From Anaerolineae bacterium (GTDB lineage Bacteria > Chloroflexota > Anaerolineae > Aggregatilineales > Phototrophicaceae): a stretch of DNA of 59,141 nt. Position 1 is the stretch's first letter. The number at the start of each line of letters is the position of its first letter. This document shows, piece after piece, positions 33,359 through 57,339 of the stretch. The notes below the pieces were generated by a model that ran no database searches, was not told where the DNA came from, and saw nothing but the letters and a program-made list of their open reading frames with translations. The stretch spans positions 1-59,141 of the forward strand of contig JALHNB010000044.1 in assembly GCA_022843745.1 (NCBI GenBank). The letters run 5' to 3'. Position numbers and translations under genes: made by a program.

Positions 33359-36300
33359 ATGCAGAATAATGTCCCGATAGATTTAAGTTTAAAAGGCTAT
33401 GAGCTGCGCCAGATGATCGGGCGCGGTGGTTTCGGCGCGGTTTATCGTGCCTATCAACCGCTGCTTGAACGCGAAGTTGCGATCAAGGTTATCCTGCCAG
33501 AATACGCCAATAACCCCAATTTTATCCGCCGATTTGAAACAGAAGCTCAACTGATTGCCCAGCTTGAGCATATTCATATTGTCCCGCTGTATGATTATTG
33601 GCGTGAGCCGGACAGTGCCTATCTGGTCATGCGCTGGCTGCGCGGCGGCAGCTTACAGGAATCGTTAGCAAAAGGGACGCTCTGGTCGATTGGTGAGATT
33701 TCGCGGCTGCTCGATCAGATTGCATCGGCATTAGTGGCTGCACATCGACATGGAATCATTCATCGTGACATCAAACCACCCAATATCCTGCTCGATGAAG
33801 AAAATAATGCTTATCTTGCGGATTTTGGTATCGCGAAAAATCTTATCACGGGCAAGCAGACCGTTGGTGATGATGAGCGCGTAGGCTCACCTGCCTATAT
33901 CTCGCCGGAGCAGATCATGGGTCAGCCTGTTTCGGCTCAAAGTGATATTTACAGCCTGGGTGTTGTGCTGTATATGCTGCTGACGGGGCAGACACCTTTT
34001 CTCGATCCTAGTACGACAACGGTGATTCGCAGGCATGTGACCGAGCCGCTGCCGCCGCTGCAAATGATTCAACCCAATTTGCCCCTCGCGCTCAATTCAA
34101 TTATCTGGCGTGCCACATCGAAACAACCAGACATGCGTTACCCTGATGCGCTGAGTATGGCAGAAGATTTTCGGCGGGTGATGTCCTCAGAACTGGGGAT
34201 GACACTCACGCCAACCAGGGTTGCAGATGTGTCGCCGACCCGGAATCTGCCGCCGACTTCCCCTGGGCGGACGGTCATTATTGACCTGCCTTTAGCACCG
34301 AAAAATCCGTATAAAGGTCTGCGGCCTTTTCAGGAAGCCGATGCCGCTGAATTTTTCGGGCGCAAAATGCTGATCGAATCGCTGCTGAAACGCCTGGATA
34401 AATCTCGGTTTTTGACGGTGATCGGCCCCAGCGGAAGCGGAAAGTCAAGCGTCGTCAAGGCGGGGATGCTTCCCATGCTGCGCCGAGGGGTGATTTTAGG
34501 CTCACAGGATTGGTTTATCACGCAAATGACACCGGGCGCGCAGCCATTTGTCGAACTGGAAGCTGCCTTACTGGGTATCGCCACTAATGCACCCACTGAG
34601 AAATTAGCGGATTATCTGCGCGAGAACCCAGCAAAGCTGACGCAAATGCTGAAGCAGATGTTGCCTGCTCAGGATGATGACGTATTGTTAGTGATTGACC
34701 AGTTTGAAGAGCTTTTTACCCAGACAGAAACTGAGATCGAACGCAGTCATTTTCTTAAATGTTTATATCTGGCTGCTACTGATCCTGATAGCCACCTGCG
34801 CATAGTCATTACATTGCGCGCCGATCTTTATGATCGACCACTTTTATATGCCGATTTCGGCAGCCTGATTCGAGAACATACAGAGGTCGTACTCCCACTG
34901 AATACCAGTGAGATGGAGGATGCGATTGTTGGCCCCGCGCATTGGCTGGGTTTGCGATTCGAGCCTGGATTGGTATCGGCGATTATTGCCGATGTCAATC
35001 AGCAGCCCGGTGCGCTGCCACTGCTGCAATATGCGCTGACTGAATTATTCGAGCATCGCGATGGATTCACGCTTACCCAGATCGCCTACCAGGAAAGTGG
35101 AGGCGTATTCGGCGCACTCGCGCGTCGCGCGGATGAGCTTTATGAAAGTCTGGATGCGACCAGCCAGGAGATGGCGCGACAACTTTTCCTGCGGATGGTC
35201 ACGCTAGGGGAGGGTGTGGACGATACACGCCGCCGAGTTTTGCGTGAAGAATTGACACGAATCGCAGGCGACAGGCGCACGATGCAGCGTGTTATCGACA
35301 CGTTTGGCAAATATCGCTTGCTGACATTCGATCATGAACCTGTGACACGTTCGCCAACGGTTGAGGTCGCGCATGAAGCCTTGATTCGCGTCTGGGGTCG
35401 TCTGCGAGATTGGATAGATGCCAGCCGTGATGATTTACGGCTTCATCAGCGCCTGTCTACTGTGACCAATGAGTGGATCAATTCAAATTACGAGTCCAGT
35501 TTTCTGGCATCAGGATCGCGTCTGGCGCAGTTCGAAACGTTGGCGGCATCCAAAAAGATCGCTCTCAGCCAGGATGAAGAAAATTATCTGCGAACCAGCG
35601 GTGCTGCCAGGCGACGGGCGGCTCGCAGGCTGCAAATATTTATTGCCGCGTTGATTGTGTTTTCTCTGGTTGCATTGGGACTGGCGCTGCTGGCCCTTGA
35701 TCGACAGGCTGCGGCTATCAGCGAACAACAGCGTGCCGACCAGGAAGCCAGCGTTGCGCGGTCACGCGAATTAGCGGTTACGGCGCTTAACGGGGTTCAA
35801 AGGCATGACTTAGCTTTGTTGTTGAGCCTGGAAGCCCTGCAATCCGCAGATACATTTGGCGCACGAAGCAGTCTGCTAACGACGCTGCAAGCTTCCCCTT
35901 ATTTACTGACTTATTTGCATGGCAGTGGTGAGTCGATCCGCAGTGTCGCTTATAGCCCGAATGGTCGCCTGATCGCATCCGGTGGCAAAGATAATGCCCT
36001 GACCCTATGGGATGGTAGTCGTCCGCTGGGACAGCCATTGACTGGACATGAAGGGTGGATTAACAGTATCGCTTTCGGCCCAGATAACCGCCTGTTGGTT
36101 TCTGGGAGCGCAGATGAGACTGTGCGACTTTGGGATGTTCAGAACCGTCAGCCAATTGGTGAGCCTCTTTTGGGTAATGGCGGTGCGGTATGGAGCGTCG
36201 CGGTTAGCCCCGATGGGCGAAAAATCGCATCCGGCAATACGGATGGAACGATCAATTTGTGGGATTCAGAGACGCAGCAACCGATAGGCGATTCCCTCAC

Positions 36301-37822
36301 AGGGCATGAGGACACTGTGTATGCGCTGGCGTTCAGCCCGGATGGTCAGATATTAGCGTCCGGCAGCGGTGATAATACGATTCGCTTGTGGGATGCTCAA
36401 ACAGGCAGCCCAATAGGTGATCCTCTTGTGGGGCATAACAATTGGGTGATGAGCGTTGTTTTTAATCCCGATGGCAGTTTGCTGGCCTCGACGGGGTTGG
36501 ATCGAACGATCATCTTGTGGGATACCCGCAATTACGAACCTATCGGACAGATTGATACCGAACATCAGGATTATGTCCGTAAACTTGCCTTTAGCCCGGA
36601 TGGTCAGATGTTGGCTTCGGGAAGCGACGATCATAGCGTGCGATTATGGGATGTGAGCTTTGGCGATATGATCGGTCAGCCACTCGTCGGACATTCCGAT
36701 GCGGTGTGGGGACTTTCCTTTAGCCCGGATGGTCAAAATTTGATTTCTGGCAGTGCGGATGGCGAAATCGCCGTTTGGGATGCGAATTTGCGGCTGCCAT
36801 TTACCCAAACATTGCTAGGCAGCGCAGATTCCATACTCAGTTTGGCTTTCAGCCCCGATGGTACACGCTTGGCATCTGCTGGCGGCAATCTGGCTGAAAC
36901 AGGACAGGATAACACGATACGCCTGTGGAATGTGGCGACCACTGCCCAGGAAGCGGTACTAACCGGACATGAGCAATCGGTTACGGGTGTTGCCTTCAGC
37001 CCGGATGGGAAGATCATCGCGTCTGCCAGCCCTGACCGAACGATCCGGCTGTGGGATACCGAAAGTGGGTCACTGATTCGCACAATCAACAATGCCAGTG
37101 CGGGAGATTATGTAACGGTGGCCTTTAGCCCAGATGGTCAATTATTGGCCTCTGGCAGTGATGATGGCGGTATCTTTTTATGGGATGTGTCCACTGGAGC
37201 GCAGCAAGGCGATGCTCTTAACGGACATAACGACGGTATTCTGAGCCTTAACTTCAGCCCGGATGGTAAAATATTAGCATCTGGAAGTCAGGATAACACG
37301 ATCATTCTGTGGGATGTTGGGACGCGAAAACCAATTCGCGATCCGCTGGTTGGACATAACGACGAAGTTTCGAGCATCGCCTTCAGCCCTGATAGTCAAA
37401 CACTGGCTTCAGGAAGCTATGACAATACGATTATTTTGTGGGATGTGGCAACGGGTCAGCCGGGTCAACCCCTCGTGGGCCATCAGGATTGGATCACAAG
37501 TCTCGCGTTCAACGCAAATGGGAACTATCTGGTTTCCGGGAGTGTTGACGACAGCGTTATTTTGTGGGATGTGGCAGCAGGTCAGCCGCTTGGGCAGCCA
37601 TTTATCGGACACACCGATTGGGTCACGGCGGTTGCCTTTAATCCACAACTTCAAATGTTTGCATCCGGTAGTCGCGATCAAACAATTAAGTTATGGGATG
37701 TCAATCCACTTTCATGGGCAGCACGTGCCTGCCAGATTGCAAACCGGAATCTCAATCCACGCGAATGGGATCAATATTTCCGTAGTGAGGCTTATCGTAA
37801 GACCTGCCCGCAGAACCCTTAA
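33359..37822 (+). CDS. Ser/Thr protein kinase-nSTAND ATPase-WD40 signalling protein
   Basis: 1487 residues. Kinase domain about 14-275: IGRGGFGAVY, Lys in VAIKV, HRDIKPPNILL near 139, LADFGIAK. An nSTAND module follows (NPYKGLRPFQEADAAEFFGR) with Walker A GPSGSGKSS near 355 and Walker B VLLVIDQFEELF near 442. A single membrane segment (IFIAALIVFSLVALGLALLAL) lies near 760-782. From about 858 to the end are 14 WD40 repeats, enough for two seven-blade propellers. The kinase and ATPase would be cytoplasmic and the WD40 part outside. The ligand is unknown. It follows the FHA gene by 94 bp. Confidence 0.93.
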   Translation: MQNNVPIDLSLKGYELRQMIGRGGFGAVYRAYQPLLEREVAIKVILPEYANNPNFIRRFETEAQLIAQLEHIHIVPLYDYWREPDSAYLVMRWLRGGSLQESLAKGTLWSIGEISRLLDQIASALVAAHRHGIIHRDIKPPNILLDEENNAYLADFGIAKNLITGKQTVGDDERVGSPAYISPEQIMGQPVSAQSDIYSLGVVLYMLLTGQTPFLDPSTTTVIRRHVTEPLPPLQMIQPNLPLALNSIIWRATSKQPDMRYPDALSMAEDFRRVMSSELGMTLTPTRVADVSPTRNLPPTSPGRTVIIDLPLAPKNPYKGLRPFQEADAAEFFGRKMLIESLLKRLDKSRFLTVIGPSGSGKSSVVKAGMLPMLRRGVILGSQDWFITQMTPGAQPFVELEAALLGIATNAPTEKLADYLRENPAKLTQMLKQMLPAQDDDVLLVIDQFEELFTQTETEIERSHFLKCLYLAATDPDSHLRIVITLRADLYDRPLLYADFGSLIREHTEVVLPLNTSEMEDAIVGPAHWLGLRFEPGLVSAIIADVNQQPGALPLLQYALTELFEHRDGFTLTQIAYQESGGVFGALARRADELYESLDATSQEMARQLFLRMVTLGEGVDDTRRRVLREELTRIAGDRRTMQRVIDTFGKYRLLTFDHEPVTRSPTVEVAHEALIRVWGRLRDWIDASRDDLRLHQRLSTVTNEWINSNYESSFLASGSRLAQFETLAASKKIALSQDEENYLRTSGAARRRAARRLQIFIAALIVFSLVALGLALLALDRQAAAISEQQRADQEASVARSRELAVTALNGVQRHDLALLLSLEALQSADTFGARSSLLTTLQASPYLLTYLHGSGESIRSVAYSPNGRLIASGGKDNALTLWDGSRPLGQPLTGHEGWINSIAFGPDNRLLVSGSADETVRLWDVQNRQPIGEPLLGNGGAVWSVAVSPDGRKIASGNTDGTINLWDSETQQPIGDSLTGHEDTVYALAFSPDGQILASGSGDNTIRLWDAQTGSPIGDPLVGHNNWVMSVVFNPDGSLLASTGLDRTIILWDTRNYEPIGQIDTEHQDYVRKLAFSPDGQMLASGSDDHSVRLWDVSFGDMIGQPLVGHSDAVWGLSFSPDGQNLISGSADGEIAVWDANLRLPFTQTLLGSADSILSLAFSPDGTRLASAGGNLAETGQDNTIRLWNVATTAQEAVLTGHEQSVTGVAFSPDGKIIASASPDRTIRLWDTESGSLIRTINNASAGDYVTVAFSPDGQLLASGSDDGGIFLWDVSTGAQQGDALNGHNDGILSLNFSPDGKILASGSQDNTIILWDVGTRKPIRDPLVGHNDEVSSIAFSPDSQTLASGSYDNTIILWDVATGQPGQPLVGHQDWITSLAFNANGNYLVSGSVDDSVILWDVAAGQPLGQPFIGHTDWVTAVAFNPQLQMFASGSRDQTIKLWDVNPLSWAARACQIANRNLNPREWDQYFRSEAYRKTCPQNP

Positions 37823-48432: not shown

Positions 48433-48476
48433 ATTCTGCTATTCGCCAGCGCCTCGGCGAATATTCTGCTATTCGC
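48433..48476 (-). repeat. In-frame tandem duplication of the cupin stop region
   Basis: GCGAATAGCAGAAT, containing the TAG stop, occurs at 48476-48463 and again at 48446-48433 (minus strand), 30 bp apart. Read-through of the first TAG would reach the second TAG after ten codons. Confidence 0.6.
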
Positions 48477-48897
48477 TGTTGCGGTCATAGGGGATAATGT
48501 TATCCCATTCGGCTGCGCTGGAACGGGCAACGACAGCGATGACAGGCTCGGTGTCGCTGATGTTAAAGACTTCATGAGGGATACCCGGCTCGATGAAGAT
48601 AAAATCTCCGGCCTCGTTTTCAAGAACCTTTTTGAGTCCAGCACCATATTCATGACGCACATGCCCTTGCAGGATGTAGAGCATCACTTCAAAATCGACA
48701 TGAATGTGAGCATAAGCCACGCCGCCGGGTGGGATGGTGGCGACGTTCATCGACAGCTCTTTTGAGCCGACATTTTTGGCTGACATGCCGATTTTATAGC
48801 GAATGTTATTCCACTCGCGTTTGTTCTGACCCCCGCGAATGACTGCAATGCCCCCACCAAACTCGACATCTTCCTTCAAATCAACCTGATCTGTCAT
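48469..48897 (-). CDS. Cupin-domain protein
   Basis: 142-residue single-domain cupin. Motif 1 reads GGVAYAHIHVDFEVMLYILQG (His-x-His-x3-Glu pattern, key residues H-x-H and E) and motif 2 PGIPHEVFNIS. The start at 48897 follows GGAGGC; thirteen earlier in-frame codons are discarded. Probably a metal-binding sugar isomerase or regulator-like protein. It is 36 bp after the peroxiredoxin gene on the same strand, so they may be co-expressed. Confidence 0.82.
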   Translation of the reverse strand: MTDQVDLKEDVEFGGGIAVIRGGQNKREWNNIRYKIGMSAKNVGSKELSMNVATIPPGGVAYAHIHVDFEVMLYILQGHVRHEYGAGLKKVLENEAGDFIFIEPGIPHEVFNISDTEPVIAVVARSSAAEWDNIIPYDRNSE

Positions 48898-48916: not shown

Positions 48917-48988
48917 GTTCGTATTATTTGCCTCACTCAGCAAGCGTTTGATCGTTCGTGTTATCTGCCTCACCTGCAAGTGCTTTAA
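48917..48988 (-). repeat. Diverged tandem duplication at the peroxiredoxin stop codon
   Basis: Two units of about 35 bp, offset 37 bp (48988-48954 and 48951-48917 on the minus strand). Both contain CTTGC-n3-TGAGGCA-AT-A-ACGAAC with a few changes; the second unit carries the TGA stop. Confidence 0.6.
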
Positions 48989-49442
48989 TATTGCTGATTA
49001 TTCCATCAACTTCTGGTGCGCCCTTTAGGATGATCTCACTGTGACGAATGATGCCCGTTTCATCCATAATAATGATTGCCCGCTTGGTATAGCCTCGTTC
49101 CGCATTATAGACACCATATTGCTGCGCGATTTCTCCTTTTGGATGAAAATCGGCAAGCAACGGGAACGTCAGACCGCCAAGTTTTTCGGCAAAGGCTCCA
49201 TGCGAATATACACTGTCCACACTGATACCCAGAACCTGGGTATTTAACTCCTCAAAGCGGGAAAGATTTTCCTGCAATGATTGGAGTTCATTGCTTCAAG
49301 TACCTGTGAAATCGAGCGGGTAGAACGCGAGAACGACGATTTTGCCACGCAGGTCAGTAAGCTTCAGTGGGCTTTTTCCGGTGCTGGCAGGTAGGTTAAA
49401 GTCTGGTGCGGGTTGCCCCACTGCGATTAATTCTTCGGACAT
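48933..49442 (-). CDS. Peroxiredoxin with in-frame UGA at the catalytic position (probable selenoprotein)
   Basis: 169 codons of an AhpC/TSA (BCP/AhpE-like) peroxiredoxin. Residues 1-48 end in FYPLDFTGT, then UGA at 49298-49296 (residue 49), then [17 protein letters not shown] to the normal C-terminus without a frame change. Peroxiredoxins carry the peroxidatic Cys exactly here (F-T-x-x-C). The family Arg is present in [11 protein letters not shown]. There is no Cys anywhere else, so without Sec the protein could not work. Start 49442 follows GGGGAGAG. Insertion of selenocysteine is the best explanation; a nonsense mutation or a sequencing error (TGC/TGT read as TGA) is the alternative. Predicted role: peroxide reduction in the cytoplasm. 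Confidence 0.75.
49257..49294 (-). promoter_or_regulatory. Hairpins downstream of the UGA, candidate bSECIS
   Basis: Two alternative stems in the mRNA. Stem 1: GCAATGA/TCATTGC, 7 bp, 7-nt loop (49294-49274), one base after the UGA. Stem 2: GCAGGAAA/TTTCCCGC, one mismatch, 3-nt loop (49275-49257), loop 28 nt after the UGA. The distance of stem 2 fits a bacterial SECIS; its loop lacks the usual early G. Confidence 0.35.
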
Positions 49443-49501
49443 ATCTCTCCCCTTTTGGCAAGTTACCCACGAGATGATACACTTTTTCACTTAAACGGCA
49501 A

Positions 49502-50580: not shown

Positions 50581-51582
50581 ATGGAAGTCTTGATTATCAA
50601 TCAATCGGAAGTTGCGCAACTGCTGCCGATGGGCGAATGTATGGACATCATGGTGGAAACGCTGGGCGCACTGGCGCAGGGGAACGCGATTTTGCCGCTG
50701 CGTCCGGTGATGTGGCTGCCGGAGCGCGTCGGGGCGCTGGGGATGATGCCTTCCTACCTCGGCAATATCGACGCGATGGGTGTCAAAGTCATCAGCGTGT
50801 TTCCGGGTAATCTCAACACAGAATACGATTCGCATCAGGGCGTGGTGCTGCTGTTTGAGACGAAAAATGGGCGATTGCTGGCGATCATGGATGCTAGTGA
50901 AATCACGGCAATTCGGACGGCGGCAGTAAGCGGTGTGGCGACCAAATTGCTGGCGCGTGAAGATGCTGGTGATCTGGCGATTCTGGGTTCTGGCGTACAG
51001 GCGGTTACTCATCTGAGTGCGATGCTCCATGCCCGAAAAATTCGCCGTGTGCGCGTGTGGAGTCGCGATGGCGATCATGCGCGTCATTTTGCGGAGCGCG
51101 AATCGCAGCGACACGGTATGGCGATTGAAGTTGCTGCAACCGCGCAAGAGGCTGTCAAAAACGCGGATATTATTTGCACGACGACATCATCACCTGAACC
51201 TGTTTTGATGGGGGAGTGGATTGCTGCCGGGGCGCATATCAACGCTGTTGGATCGAGCGTGCCGCATACGCGCGAACTCGATACAGCAGCAGTCGTGAAA
51301 TCGCGGTTGTTTGCGGATCGTCGCGAATCGACTCTCAACGAGGCGGGTGATTTTCTCATACCACGCAAAGAAGGTGCCGTCACAGATGAGCATATCCAGG
51401 GAGAAATTGGCGAAATCATCATCGGAAAAATCGCCGGACGGAAATCTCCCGATGAGGTCACGCTTTTCAAATCGTTGGGGCTATCGGTTGAGGATTTGGG
51501 ATCGGCGCAGCATATTTACACGCAGGCGATTGAAAAAACGATTGGAACCTGGGTTGAGTTAGGGGGCAATCGTCATGCTTAA
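50581..51582 (+). CDS. Ornithine cyclodeaminase/mu-crystallin family protein (EutC-like)
   Basis: 333 residues. The Rossmann motif is LAILGSGVQAVTHL near residue 140; preceding it, MDASEITAIRTAAVSGVATKLLA is the family hallmark. Members are ornithine cyclodeaminase, alanine dehydrogenase or imine reductases. AAGGATT precedes the ATG. It overlaps the next gene by 8 bp. The pairing with a threonine dehydratase-like enzyme resembles eutC-eutB of ectoine degradation, but other ectoine genes are absent here. Confidence 0.82.
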   Translation: MEVLIINQSEVAQLLPMGECMDIMVETLGALAQGNAILPLRPVMWLPERVGALGMMPSYLGNIDAMGVKVISVFPGNLNTEYDSHQGVVLLFETKNGRLLAIMDASEITAIRTAAVSGVATKLLAREDAGDLAILGSGVQAVTHLSAMLHARKIRRVRVWSRDGDHARHFAERESQRHGMAIEVAATAQEAVKNADIICTTTSSPEPVLMGEWIAAGAHINAVGSSVPHTRELDTAAVVKSRLFADRRESTLNEAGDFLIPRKEGAVTDEHIQGEIGEIIIGKIAGRKSPDEVTLFKSLGLSVEDLGSAQHIYTQAIEKTIGTWVELGGNRHA

Positions 51583-52531
51583 CGCGATTACGCTGAAGGA
51601 TATCCAGAATGCGCGGGCAAGGATTGAAGATTCCGCGATCCGCACGCCGCTTGTTCGCCTGAATGTCGATGATGCGCCGGCAGAAATCTATCTCAAGCTC
51701 GAAAATTTGCAGCCAATTGGCTCGTTTAAGCTGCGTGGCGCGGGGAATGCGATTGCGCTTGCGCCTAAAGAAGAGTTGGCAAAAGGGGTTTATACCGCCA
51801 GTGCTGGCAATATGGCACAGGGCGTGGCGTGGAATGCGCGACGATTGGGCATCCCGTGTACGGTGATTGTGCCGGATCACGCGCCGGAAACGAAATTAGC
51901 AGCGATCACACGGCTGGGCGCAACATATATCAAAGTGCCTTTTGACGTATGGTGGAATGTGGTTGTCACGCATCATTACGAAGGGCAAGAAGGTTTTTTT
52001 ATTCACCCCGTTAGCGACCCGGCGGTAATGGCTGGCAACGGCACCATCGGCCTCGAAATTTTAGAAGATTTACCGGATGTGGACACGGTTCTCGTTCCCT
52101 ATGGCGGCGGAGGGTTAAGCTCTGGGATCGCGACGGCAGTCCGTGCGCTGAAACCGGACACGAAAATTTTCGCTTGTGAGGTCGAAACAGCGGCGGCGTT
52201 GGCGGGTTCGTTAGCAGCAGGTGAAATTACAACAGTGCCTTATACGCCAAGCTTCGTGGATGGGATCGGAAGCCGATCTGTCCTGGAAGAGATGTGGCCG
52301 CTGGTACGCAGTCTGCTCGATGGTTCACTGGTGGTGTCATTGGATGAAGTTGCGGCGGCAGTGCGAATCCTCGCCGAGCGTAACCGTGTCATCGCTGAAG
52401 GTGCGGGTGCAGCGTCTGTCGCAGTGGCAATGAGTGGAAAAGCGGGCGGTGGAAAAATCGCCTGTATCGTCTCCGGCGGCAACATTGACCTCGGAAAATT
52501 TGTCACAGCGCTGGGAATACAGATGCATTGA
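51575..52531 (+). CDS. Threonine/serine dehydratase-like PLP enzyme (EutB-like)
   Basis: 318 residues, fold-type II PLP enzyme. PLP Lys in IGSFKLRGAGNA near residue 53, phosphate-binding loop PYGGGGLSSGIATA near 175, and IVSGGNIDLGKF near the end. It lacks the regulatory ACT domains of biosynthetic IlvA, as catabolic enzymes do. The start overlaps the cyclodeaminase gene; GGGGGC precedes the ATG. Deamination of a hydroxy-amino acid followed by imine reduction by the neighbour is a plausible two-step pathway (inference). Confidence 0.85.
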   Translation: MLNAITLKDIQNARARIEDSAIRTPLVRLNVDDAPAEIYLKLENLQPIGSFKLRGAGNAIALAPKEELAKGVYTASAGNMAQGVAWNARRLGIPCTVIVPDHAPETKLAAITRLGATYIKVPFDVWWNVVVTHHYEGQEGFFIHPVSDPAVMAGNGTIGLEILEDLPDVDTVLVPYGGGGLSSGIATAVRALKPDTKIFACEVETAAALAGSLAAGEITTVPYTPSFVDGIGSRSVLEEMWPLVRSLLDGSLVVSLDEVAAAVRILAERNRVIAEGAGAASVAVAMSGKAGGGKIACIVSGGNIDLGKFVTALGIQMH

Positions 52532-52539
52532 TGTGCATT

Positions 52540-52570
52540 GAAAGGGCTTAGGTGTGCCTCAAGCCCTTTC
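52540..52570. terminator. Bidirectional terminator candidate
   Basis: GAAAGGGCTT (52540-52549) pairs with AAGCCCTTTC (52561-52570), 11-nt loop, between convergent genes ending at 52531 and 52576. Neither side has a long T run. Just before it, a 10-bp imperfect repeat (GATGCATTGA / TGTGCATTGA) spans the dehydratase stop. Confidence 0.55.
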
Positions 52571-52575
52571 GTTTG

Positions 52576-54882
52576 CTAAAAGTAAGGGCTAATCCTTCTT
52601 AAGAGATCAGCGATATTGTCGGTATCACCAAGAAAATATCCATCGCCTGTAGTGGGATCAATGATAAAGCTAACGTTACCGATCCGGTTTAGCTCTGTCA
52701 TATCGGCATCGTTTCCATAAGCGATGGGTATCACAATCACGGGGTTGGAAGTTTGCCAACTAGCGCCGATTGCCCTTAGAACGGGATCGATGGTTATGAC
52801 GCCTGCTGTATCGCGACCATCACTCAAGAGGACGATAGCGTGAATACGATCATCATCGGCATTGCTTAACATTTGCATAGCTTCTAACAGTGCTTGATAG
52901 AGCGATGTATCGTTCATAGCGGCAGGGTTGCCATAATCCAGATTGCTAATCTGGGACTGGACTTGATTACCAACTAGCGTGAATGGATTAAGATCAACCT
53001 GGATGCTGACTTGGTTATTAAAAGTAATCAACGCAAGGTTATCATCCGGTGAAAGATTTCCCGATTGCAGAAATTGTAAAGCGGCCTCTTTAGCACGATC
53101 TAGCTTTTCAGGCGGGTTGCTCATCGAACCTGAAATGTCGATGACTAATACGAGATTGGTTTGCTTTTTAACATTGGTCCAATTTTTCTGTACACTATCC
53201 GCAAAATTGGGCGATGGGCTTGGAAGAATTATGGGCGGGTCGCCATTTGTTACCCCACATTGAGAAATCTGACAGCTATCCCAAAAAGTGTTATCGAGTT
53301 GAATATTCGTATTTGCCGGGCGAAAGCCGTAGCTCATGATGAGGCGCTGGATTGGCTCGGACACAGCATAATCGACAAAATAACGCGCTGCTTCCTGCTG
53401 TTCGGGTGTGACCCAATCTGCGTTGACGATTCCCATCGGACGCTCATGGAAGAATGTGCCTTCTTTGGGATAGAGCGCGACAAGGGGTTCAGGTGGAAAG
53501 CCGATGTCGCTACGTCCTTGATTGATGTAAATGAGGTCATTCTCCTCAAGTGGCACGAAATCCAGATAATCTGGGCCCCGTCCTAAATATTGGCGAAAGA
53601 CGACAGTATTGAGGGCATAATGGCGAGCCAGGTGTTGAAATTCACGAACCTTATCGACTACCCCCGGTGTCGTGACTGCGTTGACATCCAACTGCACGTT
53701 GGGCCAACCGTTCGCGAAATAAAATTGAGAGATGAGGCTGGAAAGGGCAGTCGAACTAACATTGGGATCTGTAAAGCCCATGAGAACTGCACGACGGCAG
53801 TTGGGCACATTATAATCACACCAACCATTGGGGCTGTTTTGCACGTCGAGCAGGTCTTGCCAGCCGATTTGGGCGCGACTTTTTCCCGTTTTTGCTGCGA
53901 TGGCCTGAAGGCGACTCTCCCAAATCGCCAGCACAACCGGTTCGCGTGTTGTAGCACGGCTTTCGCTGCGGTTGGCGAGATCGTAAGGATCGTTGATGGC
54001 GAAAACCGTGCGCTCACTGCGGTAATTGACTAACTTAAGCCAATCACTCACAGATGGCTGAAAAACCACCGGACGCTCAATATTGAGGTTGCCGGGGTCG
54101 GTGATGGCGTTGATAATCCCTTGAGCAACCGTTCCAGATGAACCACTTTTGCCGGTTACACAGATAAACATCGGAAGTTGCTGATCGTTTCTTGGATCAA
54201 CCCCTTGCTCACACGCTTTCGCGTTAAATTGGGCGATTAAGCCGCTGCTACCTTCCATGTAATTGGCTGATTCAGGCGCGTAAATAATTTCAATATTTAT
54301 CCGTATCTGCAAGATTGGTGGTGGTGCAGTAGGTGTAGTTACTGCTGTTGACGTAATAGTTATAGGTATATCAGTAGCAGTTGAAGTTAGAGTTAGTGAT
54401 GGAGTCGGGGCTGGTTGGGAGAAGTTGAGCGATAAACTATCTACGCCGGCTGGTAAAAATCGCATTCCCAAAGTATTGGGTATGAGACTAAGGGTTCTGC
54501 GCTGGTTGGTCGTGTTATCGTGCCAGAAAACTTCGCCGTCGGCGAGGTATTGGGTTAAGGTTATAGTTGAAGGGCACTGAGTAGGAGAAGTTAGATTACT
54601 ACCATTGCGAAAGAGACGAAAACAAATGGGCGGTAAGATATTGTCAAATGGGATGCTAAAAGCGGGATATCGCTCTAACAAATAGGTTTCGGTCTGATCA
54701 TTAAGGGTGACTTGGAATCCAAACCCTCTTAATGATACGGGTCCACCCGCTGGAATATAAACTGTTAAACTATCATCATCAATAAAAATAGTTCCACTAA
54801 TAGTTGCTTGAGCTTTTAAACTACCGACGAACAGCAATAACGCGAGAATATTTATCCCGACGAATAGCAGACGGCGTACCAT
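52576..54882 (-). CDS. Secreted solute-binding/von Willebrand factor A fusion protein
   Basis: 768 residues. A signal peptide or anchor (LLFVGINILALLLFVGSL) is followed by a beta-rich region, a Thr/Pro-rich linker (about 155-195), a type 2 extracellular solute-binding-like region (about 200-560, ending LIMSYGFRPAN), and a C-terminal VWA domain (about 574-768). The MIDAS is intact: VIDISGSMSNPP, a Thr in the middle and LLSDGRDTAGV. Such fusions are frequent in Chloroflexota; the ligand and process are unknown. AAAGGT precedes the ATG. Codon and base use look like the neighbours. Confidence 0.8.
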   Translation of the reverse strand: MVRRLLFVGINILALLLFVGSLKAQATISGTIFIDDDSLTVYIPAGGPVSLRGFGFQVTLNDQTETYLLERYPAFSIPFDNILPPICFRLFRNGSNLTSPTQCPSTITLTQYLADGEVFWHDNTTNQRRTLSLIPNTLGMRFLPAGVDSLSLNFSQPAPTPSLTLTSTATDIPITITSTAVTTPTAPPPILQIRINIEIIYAPESANYMEGSSGLIAQFNAKACEQGVDPRNDQQLPMFICVTGKSGSSGTVAQGIINAITDPGNLNIERPVVFQPSVSDWLKLVNYRSERTVFAINDPYDLANRSESRATTREPVVLAIWESRLQAIAAKTGKSRAQIGWQDLLDVQNSPNGWCDYNVPNCRRAVLMGFTDPNVSSTALSSLISQFYFANGWPNVQLDVNAVTTPGVVDKVREFQHLARHYALNTVVFRQYLGRGPDYLDFVPLEENDLIYINQGRSDIGFPPEPLVALYPKEGTFFHERPMGIVNADWVTPEQQEAARYFVDYAVSEPIQRLIMSYGFRPANTNIQLDNTFWDSCQISQCGVTNGDPPIILPSPSPNFADSVQKNWTNVKKQTNLVLVIDISGSMSNPPEKLDRAKEAALQFLQSGNLSPDDNLALITFNNQVSIQVDLNPFTLVGNQVQSQISNLDYGNPAAMNDTSLYQALLEAMQMLSNADDDRIHAIVLLSDGRDTAGVITIDPVLRAIGASWQTSNPVIVIPIAYGNDADMTELNRIGNVSFIIDPTTGDGYFLGDTDNIADLLRRISPYF

Positions 54883-55051
54883 ACGCTACCTTTCTAGGTT
54901 GATAATGGACTAGGTGATTTTGCCACAAGAGAATTTTTATTGCCAATGAAAGAGTTACTATCAGTTTCAATTAATTGTATCGTGTCTCAAATCGATATTG
55001 ACTATGGCGTTGGGCCAGTCCACACCTGACAGGCAGCCAATCATGAATTAA

Positions 55052-55067
55052 AATGATGTTTATCATT
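55052..55067 (+). promoter_or_regulatory. Inverted repeat before iscS
   Basis: AATGAT-GTTT-ATCATT, 18 nt before the start codon region of the desulfurase. It resembles the half-sites of Fur-type boxes; a role in iron or redox control of the operon is only a suggestion. Confidence 0.3.
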
Positions 55068-55084
55068 GAAATTATAAGGATAAG

Positions 55085-56251
55085 ATGATGGCTGTCCGGC
55101 GCACGGTTTATCTCGATCATTCTGCATCAACACCTACTGATCCGCGTGTGGTCGAGGCGATGATGCCCTATTTCACCGAAATTTATGGCAACCCGTCGTC
55201 GTCGCACAGTTTTGGGCGCAAAGCTGAACGGGCGATTGAAAATGCACGTGAAACCATCGCTGAAATTTTCAACTGTAAACCTTCGGAAATTGTGTTCACC
55301 AGCGGCGGCTCGGAAAGCGATAATCTGGCGATTCGCGGCGCAGTCTGGAACAGACATAAAGATGGCAAAAATGGTCATCTGATTACGACACCGACGGAAC
55401 ACGATGCGGTCAGCCGCACCATCGAGCAACTTGTCGAGGTCATGGAATTTGAGCAGTCGATTTTGCCTGTCGATCACTTTGGAAGTGTCGGTGTCGGCGA
55501 TTTTGAGCAGGCGATTCGCGAAAATACGGTTATCGCGAGCCTGATTTATGCCAATAACGAGGTTGGCACGATTCAAACATTGGCTGATTTAGCGAAAATT
55601 GCCCACAAGCGCGGGGTGCTTTTTCACACGGATGCGGTACAGGCCGCCGGGCAGCTTCCGCTGGATGTTCAAGAGCTTGGCGTGGACATGTTGAGCATTT
55701 CCGCGCATAAGTTTTATGGGCCAAAGGGCGTAGGTGCGCTGTACGTGCGTGATGGCATCGACCTTTTGCCGAGTCAAAGCGGCGGTAGTCACGAAAGTGG
55801 CCGTCGCGCCGGAACGCATAATACGCCGTTTATCGTGGGGATGGCAAAGGCGCTGCAACTGGCCTATGTTGAACCGCATAATGCCCATTATCAAGCGATG
55901 CGTGACCGTCTGATCGGCGGCGTTTTGAACCGTGTGCCAAATGCCAAATTGACCGGACACCCTGAGCAGCGCTTGCCCTCACACGCGAGTTTTATTTTTG
56001 ATGGCATCGAAAGCAATTTACTGCTCTCACATCTGGATTTAAAGGGCATTGCTGCCAGCAGCGGGTCGGCTTGCAAAACGGGCAATCCTGAGCCATCCGG
56101 CGTTTTGTTAGCGATGGGCTACAGCGAGAAAGAAGCCCTGAGCAGCCTGCGTCTAACGGTTGGACGGCAGACAACGCCAGAAGAGATTGACTATGCCGTC
56201 GATACGTTAGTTGAAGTCATCGAGAAGTTAGCGAAATTGGCTGTGTTGTAA
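55085..56251 (+). CDS. iscS: Cysteine desulfurase (IscS/NifS)
   Basis: 388 residues. Start YLDHSASTPTDPRVVEAMMPY is diagnostic; PLP Lys in SISAHKFYGPKGVGALYV near residue 203 and catalytic Cys in SSGSACKTGNPEP near 325. It provides persulfide sulfur for tRNA thiolation and iron-sulfur clusters. AAGGATAAG precedes the two ATGs. Its stop overlaps the mnmA start (TAATG), so the thiolation partner follows directly. Persulfide or selenide delivery to a selenoprotein pathway is conceivable but unsupported. Confidence 0.93.
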   Translation: MMAVRRTVYLDHSASTPTDPRVVEAMMPYFTEIYGNPSSSHSFGRKAERAIENARETIAEIFNCKPSEIVFTSGGSESDNLAIRGAVWNRHKDGKNGHLITTPTEHDAVSRTIEQLVEVMEFEQSILPVDHFGSVGVGDFEQAIRENTVIASLIYANNEVGTIQTLADLAKIAHKRGVLFHTDAVQAAGQLPLDVQELGVDMLSISAHKFYGPKGVGALYVRDGIDLLPSQSGGSHESGRRAGTHNTPFIVGMAKALQLAYVEPHNAHYQAMRDRLIGGVLNRVPNAKLTGHPEQRLPSHASFIFDGIESNLLLSHLDLKGIAASSGSACKTGNPEPSGVLLAMGYSEKEALSSLRLTVGRQTTPEEIDYAVDTLVEVIEKLAKLAVL

Positions 56252-57339
56252 TGACTAATGCAGATATTCGAGTCGTGGTGGCGATGAGTGGCGGGGTTGA
56301 TAGCTCCGTCGCGGCGGCTTTGTTGGTCGAGCAGGGTTATGAAGTCGTCGGGATGATGATGCGTCTGTGGTCGGACGAAACGGTTGGCGGGCGTGTGAGT
56401 AACCGCTGCTGTACCCCTGACCAGATGGCGGATGCACGTAGGATTGCCGATAAGCTCGATATTCCCTTTTATGTGCTGGACACCAAAGACGTTTTCCGCG
56501 AGAAAATTGTCGATTTTTTCATTGACCAGCATCGACAGGGCGTGACACCGAACCCATGCATGGAGTGCAACCGTCACATTCGCTTTGATTGGCTTCAGGG
56601 ACACGCGCTGGCGATGGATGCGGATTATCTGGCGACGGGGCATTACGCGCGGATTGCCAGTGACGAAAATGGACGGTTTACGCTCAAAAAAGGCGTGGAC
56701 GAGGGCAAGGATCAAAGCTATGTCCTGAGCGTGATAGGACAGGAGCAGCTTCGTCATGCCATGTTCCCGGTGGGCGAACATCCGAAGCCGGAAGTGCGCA
56801 AAATCGCGGAACGATTCGGCTTGCCAACTGCCAGCAAAAAGGACAGCCAGGATTTATGTTTTCTGGGGGATGGCGATTATCGCCGATTTTTGACCGTCTA
56901 CGCGCCAGAAGTGATGGCTGCCGGGCCGATTGTCCGCAAAACGGGCGAGATTATCGGCGAGCATCAGGGGTTAGCAAATTATACGATTGGGCAACGCAAG
57001 GGATTAGGTATCTACGCGCCAGAGCCGCTGTATGTGATCGGCATGAATCCGTATCGCAATGCGCTCGTCGTCGGTACGGTTGACGAACTGGGCGCGACGA
57101 CCCTCACGGCGAAGCGTGTGAATTGGGTGGGTGGCGAGACTCCGACTGATTTATTCCGTGCGGAGGTAAAAATTCGCTATAAGGCAAATCCGGTTTCGGC
57201 GTGGGTTGAGCCTGTGGGTGATGATGAATTCCGCGTGGAGTTTGACGAACCTATGCGCGACATCACACCAGGGCAGGGCGCAGTCGTTTATGACGGCGAC
57301 ACCTGCCTCGGCGGTGGGATCATACAACGTCAGAACTAA
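56251..57339 (+). CDS. mnmA: tRNA-specific 2-thiouridylase MnmA
   Basis: 362 residues. PP-loop SGGVDSSVAAALL at the N-terminus; catalytic cysteines in NPCMECNRHIRF near residue 110 and SQDLCFLGDGDYRRF near 205; C-terminal beta-barrel. It makes 2-thiouridine at position 34 of tRNA Lys, Glu and Gln with sulfur from IscS. One-base overlap with iscS supports an operon. The stop overlaps the convergent PhyH gene by 4 bp. Confidence 0.95.
   Translation: MTNADIRVVVAMSGGVDSSVAAALLVEQGYEVVGMMMRLWSDETVGGRVSNRCCTPDQMADARRIADKLDIPFYVLDTKDVFREKIVDFFIDQHRQGVTPNPCMECNRHIRFDWLQGHALAMDADYLATGHYARIASDENGRFTLKKGVDEGKDQSYVLSVIGQEQLRHAMFPVGEHPKPEVRKIAERFGLPTASKKDSQDLCFLGDGDYRRFLTVYAPEVMAAGPIVRKTGEIIGEHQGLANYTIGQRKGLGIYAPEPLYVIGMNPYRNALVVGTVDELGATTLTAKRVNWVGGETPTDLFRAEVKIRYKANPVSAWVEPVGDDEFRVEFDEPMRDITPGQGAVVYDGDTCLGGGIIQRQN

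Follow-up and report, generated by a model that had tools for sequence, protein, structure and literature searches.

The minus-strand gene at 48933-49442 of the window (the whole stretch of 59,141 nucleotides analysed here, from the Anaerolineae bacterium genome G000) almost certainly codes for an AhpE-like peroxiredoxin in which the peroxidatic residue, judging from sequence comparisons, would be a selenocysteine decoded by SelB at the in-frame UGA of 49296-49298. The evidence for a real selenoprotein is strong. Selenocysteine peroxiredoxins as a kind of enzyme are already known; this gene is hidden from ordinary gene finding, its active-site selenocysteine being spelled with a codon that is normally a stop, and its Cys-free product offers a clean case for how a one-selenocysteine peroxidase gets recycled.

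The reading frame and its predicted product

The gene and its signals are located as follows.

48933..49442, minus strand: gene for a Sec peroxiredoxin of 169 aa (U49 included), ending in TGA
49296..49298, minus strand: UGA codon (codon 49) read as selenocysteine, at the peroxidatic position
49445..49452, minus strand: purine-rich, ribosome-binding-like stretch GGGGAGAG, just 5' of the ATG, from sequence reading

The sequence-only reading had claimed a single frame broken by one UGA, and reading the frame bears this out, since it starts at ATG 49442, ends at TGA 48933-48935 and has the TGA at 49296-49298 as its sole interruption. Translated with TGA as U, gene 49442-48933 (minus strand) gives a product of 169 residues with U49 and zero Cys, which confirms that the protein is without Cys, as had been proposed. 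The mechanical ORF list makes two frames of the gene, one of 64 aa (with an upstream GTG start) and one of 114 aa, and none of the 14 NCBIfam models matching the Sec peroxiredoxin does so at its cut-off; standard annotation would thus probably split or lose the gene, much as the earlier expectation of fragments or a pseudogene had it. Given that UGA peroxiredoxins occur in loci of many phyla, such genes are likely under-counted.

The Pfam AhpC-TSA match runs across the UGA (E 1.6e-37), and a TGA or Cys codon occupies the same place in 137/137 other loci, which upholds the assignment of the UGA to the peroxidatic position. The sequence hallmarks of a peroxiredoxin were found, namely the AhpC-TSA domain, T46-x-x-U49 and the catalytic Arg121; neither C/U49 nor Arg121 varies across two alignments, of 33 and 27 sequences. 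AlphaFold2, run with 27 sequences, gave a model with a mean pLDDT of 92.3 and a pTM of 0.87, for which Foldseek top-ranked human Prx1 and mycobacterial AhpE; by this modelled fold, the product is predicted with confidence to be an AhpE-like peroxiredoxin.

Homologous loci and the decoding of the UGA

Homologues were searched in 61 genomes, in a public genome collection and in 396 genomes of the class, and 137 loci (the window locus excluded) were fetched, read through and aligned, PrxQ-like and AhpC-like relatives included. In this alignment with Sec and Cys peroxiredoxins, which the sequence-only reading had called for, codon 49 was TGA in 79 loci, TGC/TGT in 58 and Trp or Gly in 0, the 137 loci not being independent, as one genus supplies many of them. 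The UGA loci are labelled Chloroflexota, Binatota, Myxococcota, Acidobacteriota, Bacillota and others; of the 79, 14 are Cys-free within the aligned stretch.

L135, the nearest homologue, comes from G377, a genome of the same class but a different family; it is 63% identical and displays the same UGA, zero Cys and a terminal TGA stop, and its genome has selB and a tRNA-Sec match of 72.6 bits. Identity between the window protein and L135 amounts to 34/48 residues before the UGA and 64/108 after it, with third-codon-position differences of 0.52 before and 0.63 after the UGA and differences of 0.19-0.29 at the other positions. Differences thus fall mostly on third codon positions on both sides, which shows protein-level constraint past the UGA and agrees with the earlier claim that the peroxiredoxin is well kept there.

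These data bear directly on whether the gene is a Cys peroxiredoxin disabled by a nonsense mutation or a sequencing error. TGA differs from a Cys codon by a single base, and nothing else breaks the frame, which is what one would expect of a very recent error. However, the TGA recurs at codon 49 in the 79 loci counted above, nearest homologue included, constraint persists past it, the genome has Sec genes, and only one of the 17 AhpC-TSA matches in G000 contains an internal stop, namely the Sec peroxiredoxin gene, the other 16 being stop-free. We therefore regard a pseudogene as highly improbable; the insertion of selenocysteine that had been proposed at the UGA is supported by the Sec genes, by the constraint past the UGA and by the recurrence of UGA in other loci.

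The search for selA, selB, selD and tRNA-Sec that had been suggested found every one of them in G000 (7.96 Mb in 117 contigs, with a completeness of 98.6 and a contamination of 4.0). On contig C13, selB scored 394 bits (cut-off 242) and selD 382 bits (cut-off 125); selA scored 549 bits on C10 (cut-off 268), and tRNA-Sec 71 bits on C19 (gathering score 47), with the anticodon tca (UCA) according to ARAGORN. selA, selB and selD are all free of internal stops. In addition, a search of G000 for formate dehydrogenase alpha gave 3 matches, 0 above the cut-off and 0 with an internal stop. If UGA stood for a residue such as Trp or Gly throughout the genome, this would also account for readthrough of the UGA in gene 49442-48933, but the gene itself and its nearest homologue both end in TGA, the aligned codon is Cys in 58 of the 137 loci and never Trp or Gly, and selB is present together with a tRNA-Sec of anticodon UCA, so that reassignment has a negligible probability.

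Among relatives, selB was above the cut-off in 39 of the 61 genomes of the first search, G000 included. With one fetched best locus per genome, taken from the 61-genome and 396-genome searches, selB was above the cut-off in 29/29 genomes with U in that locus vs 18/28 with Cys (Fisher 3e-4). Counting by any examined U locus gave 29 of 30 genomes, the exception being G297, in which a second peroxiredoxin, L173 (G297:C1:4256200-4257400), has U at position 49 and the fetched best locus has Cys. No selB match was found at E 1e-70 in G297, a genome of one contig that is 85% complete; its tRNA-Sec match reaches 67.5 bits. Either a selB with a disrupted frame or a genuine loss of the gene could explain this. 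Note that the tRNA-Sec family model also gives matches of 47-57 bits and ordinary length in selB-less genomes, and its cut-off alone is therefore not specific. UGA matches in the selB-less genomes G037 and G048, considered as U peroxiredoxins, were rejected, both having Cys at position 49.

The tree was built on 113 of 138 rows, after leaving out 23 scoring below 230 and 2 identical ones. The Sec/Cys label changes 7 times on it and is clustered (as low in 0/500 shuffles). The window protein groups with L135 and the Sec rows L088, L090 and L102, two of which are labelled Myxococcota; support for this group is 92/92, under the program's star limit, and a long branch leads to the latter three. 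The contig looks native to the genome, with a window G+C of 0.519 (other stretches of G000, 0.456-0.584) and a neighbouring protein at 52579-54882 for which 23 of the 36 other genomes of the family contain matches at 42-56% identity. The Sec peroxiredoxin itself found no match better than 7e-23 in these 36 genomes, the best being a PrxQ-like Cys protein; this poor matching points to a gene that was probably gained, or else kept patchily.

Several other UGA types were observed among the loci. An AhpC-like type with the motif VUPTEL occurs within the same order (L025, L028, L031, L032, L034, L035, L036, L040, L041, L046 and L050), L046 belonging to the same family as the source genome. Also from this family, L051 is PrxQ-like; a TGA takes the peroxidatic place (FAFPKAGTYGU), and there are two more Cys. 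The Bacillota loci among L085-L126 hold UGA peroxiredoxins of Bacillaceae, Fictibacillaceae and kin; most of these Bacillota loci have the CCTCTTGGAAAGAGG hairpin in common, and the GGA loop of L085 fits the bSECIS model.

A predicted hairpin past the UGA

The candidate element is located as follows.

49246..49288, minus strand: predicted SECIS-like hairpin, 3' of the UGA

According to PMC13188914, a bacterial element lies 16-37 nt past the UGA, with a loop of 3-9 nt, a stem of at least 4 pairs and an MFE of -7.5 or lower. The window hairpin falls within these distance, loop, stem and MFE limits (loop of 3 nt, 28 nt past the UGA, -17.1 kcal/mol); by the bSECIS rule of the same paper, a G is placed in the first two loop positions, and no such structure was found within 6 kcal/mol. 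Two reviews report that some elements fall outside the bSECIS model. As coded here, the model separates U from Cys rows poorly, because 55 of the 76 U rows and 30 of the 58 Cys rows fit it.

The hairpin is more stable than would be expected from synonymous recoding: recoding of 57 nt reached -17.1 kcal/mol in 43 of 4000 cases (z -2.7 to -2.9 over three seeds), and permutation of the gene's own synonymous codons in 15/4000; other recoding runs gave 18/2000 and, for a short run, z -2.33. Dinucleotide shuffles of the hairpin stretch yielded z values of -1.1 (49 nt), -3.0 (65 nt) and -2.9 (81 nt). Across 134 distinct rows of 138, the mean hairpin z was -1.73 for U rows outside the AhpC-like type (n=65) and -0.25 for Cys rows (n=58), with little signal in the AhpC-like U rows (-0.62, n=11). 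Within the same gene, two further stretches fold at least as well (-19.4 and -18.9); the one at -19.4 overlaps the hairpin.

Across 19 chosen sequences, 69.4% of cells are paired in the window structure and two-sided changes number 17; its covariation score of 0.249 was reached by 0/500 shuffles (slid versions, 0.060-0.169), in a count that favours this structure, as it came from one of the 19 sequences. Alignment A3 combined the window with 18 U loci out of the 79, picked by type, and A4 combined it with 21. RNAalifold found no consensus structure in two alignments. A structure derived from L150 was discarded, its pairing being less clear than that of the window's own and its version slid by -1 scoring above the in-register covariation. 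In the window, Rfam gave nothing at gathering scores and ARAGORN no tRNA.

Gene neighbourhood, proposed mechanism and known systems

Three genes around the Sec peroxiredoxin have counterparts beside L135.

48469..48897, minus strand: cupin gene, directly downstream, 62% identical neighbour in L135
49530..50507, plus strand: aldo/keto reductase gene, divergent, 77% identical neighbour in L135
47153..48343, minus strand: ABC transporter periplasmic binding protein (PF13458), 52% identical neighbour in L135

The cupin gene is probably co-transcribed with the Sec peroxiredoxin gene. Among the 137 loci, whose flanks mostly covered 1.5-3 kb, aldo/keto reductase, cupin and ABC binding protein neighbours were found only in L135.

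Further away on the plus strand, ornithine cyclodeaminase-family and threonine dehydratase-like genes overlap by a few bases at 50581-52531, and a NifS-like cysteine desulfurase (under the NifS cut-off) stands beside MnmA at 55085-57339. That a desulfurase near a selenoprotein gene might be relevant to selenium supply is speculation. Reading 50581-57339 as a beta-hydroxyaspartate cycle cluster was rejected, the class-V protein being nearest to NifS and the next gene being MnmA. At 33359-37822, the plus strand also encodes a protein of 1487 aa in which a protein kinase domain and a novel STAND NTPase 1 domain are combined with many WD40 repeats.

We propose that SelB and Sec-tRNA(UCA) would decode the UGA at 49296-49298, aided by the hairpin just past it, which may play the SECIS role. 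By analogy with the peroxiredoxin family, U49 as a selenolate, with Thr46 and Arg121 holding it in place, would attack the peroxide and become a selenenic acid, and an external thiol or redoxin would then reduce U49 back. An external reductant is required in this scheme because the protein is without Cys, and the product is most likely a peroxidase with a single selenocysteine that an external thiol recycles. In AhpE, the reductant is mycothiol/mycoredoxin.

The neighbours conserved with L135 (cupin, aldo/keto reductase and ABC binding protein) could also suggest that the UGA is indeed read as Sec, with the protein acting mainly as a redox partner or peroxide sensor tied to the cupin and the aldo/keto reductase and not as a general peroxidase. 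However, the peroxidase site retains its Thr/Ser, Sec/Cys and Arg, and Prx1 and AhpE are nearest in fold, so we consider such a role unlikely. With the gene taken as that of an AhpE-like Sec peroxiredoxin, a more specific picture may be put forward tentatively, as a possibility somewhat doubtful as a whole: a Cys-free, AhpE-type one-Sec peroxiredoxin with a SECIS class lacking the loop G, serving as the dedicated partner of the cupin and the aldo/keto reductase and not as a general peroxidase.

Compared with known systems, the best PDB sequence match is AhpE of Mycobacterium tuberculosis (1xxu, 4x0x, 5id2), whose chains superpose on the predicted model with an rmsd of 1.3-1.7 and a TM of 0.90-0.94 by target length; identity is 36-37%, and AhpE has Cys where the window protein has Sec. 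PrxU (NF040737), a thioredoxin-dependent peroxiredoxin, is related in sequence, with an alignment over residues 4-154, but at 95.8 bits the window protein stays below the cut-off of 270 and is not a member by this model. A full-text literature search returned no title on an AhpE-type Sec peroxiredoxin, which is weak evidence of absence. Bacterial Sec peroxiredoxins (PF00578, TxxU), as described in PMC13188914 and PMC2398784, share the AhpC-TSA domain and a Sec after T-x-x. These and two other papers list Prx TxxU among selenoprotein families, citing experimental work of 2001 (PMC13188914), with 12 entries in 2006 (PMC1794560), 253 marine sequences in 2008 (PMC2398784) and 91 selenoproteins in 2016 (PMC5029168). 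Since TxxU Sec peroxiredoxins are already tabled, the gene is an unannotated addition to a known family, from which the window member differs in being Cys-free, as are 14/79 other U loci, and in a gene neighbourhood that recurs in 1 of the 137 loci.
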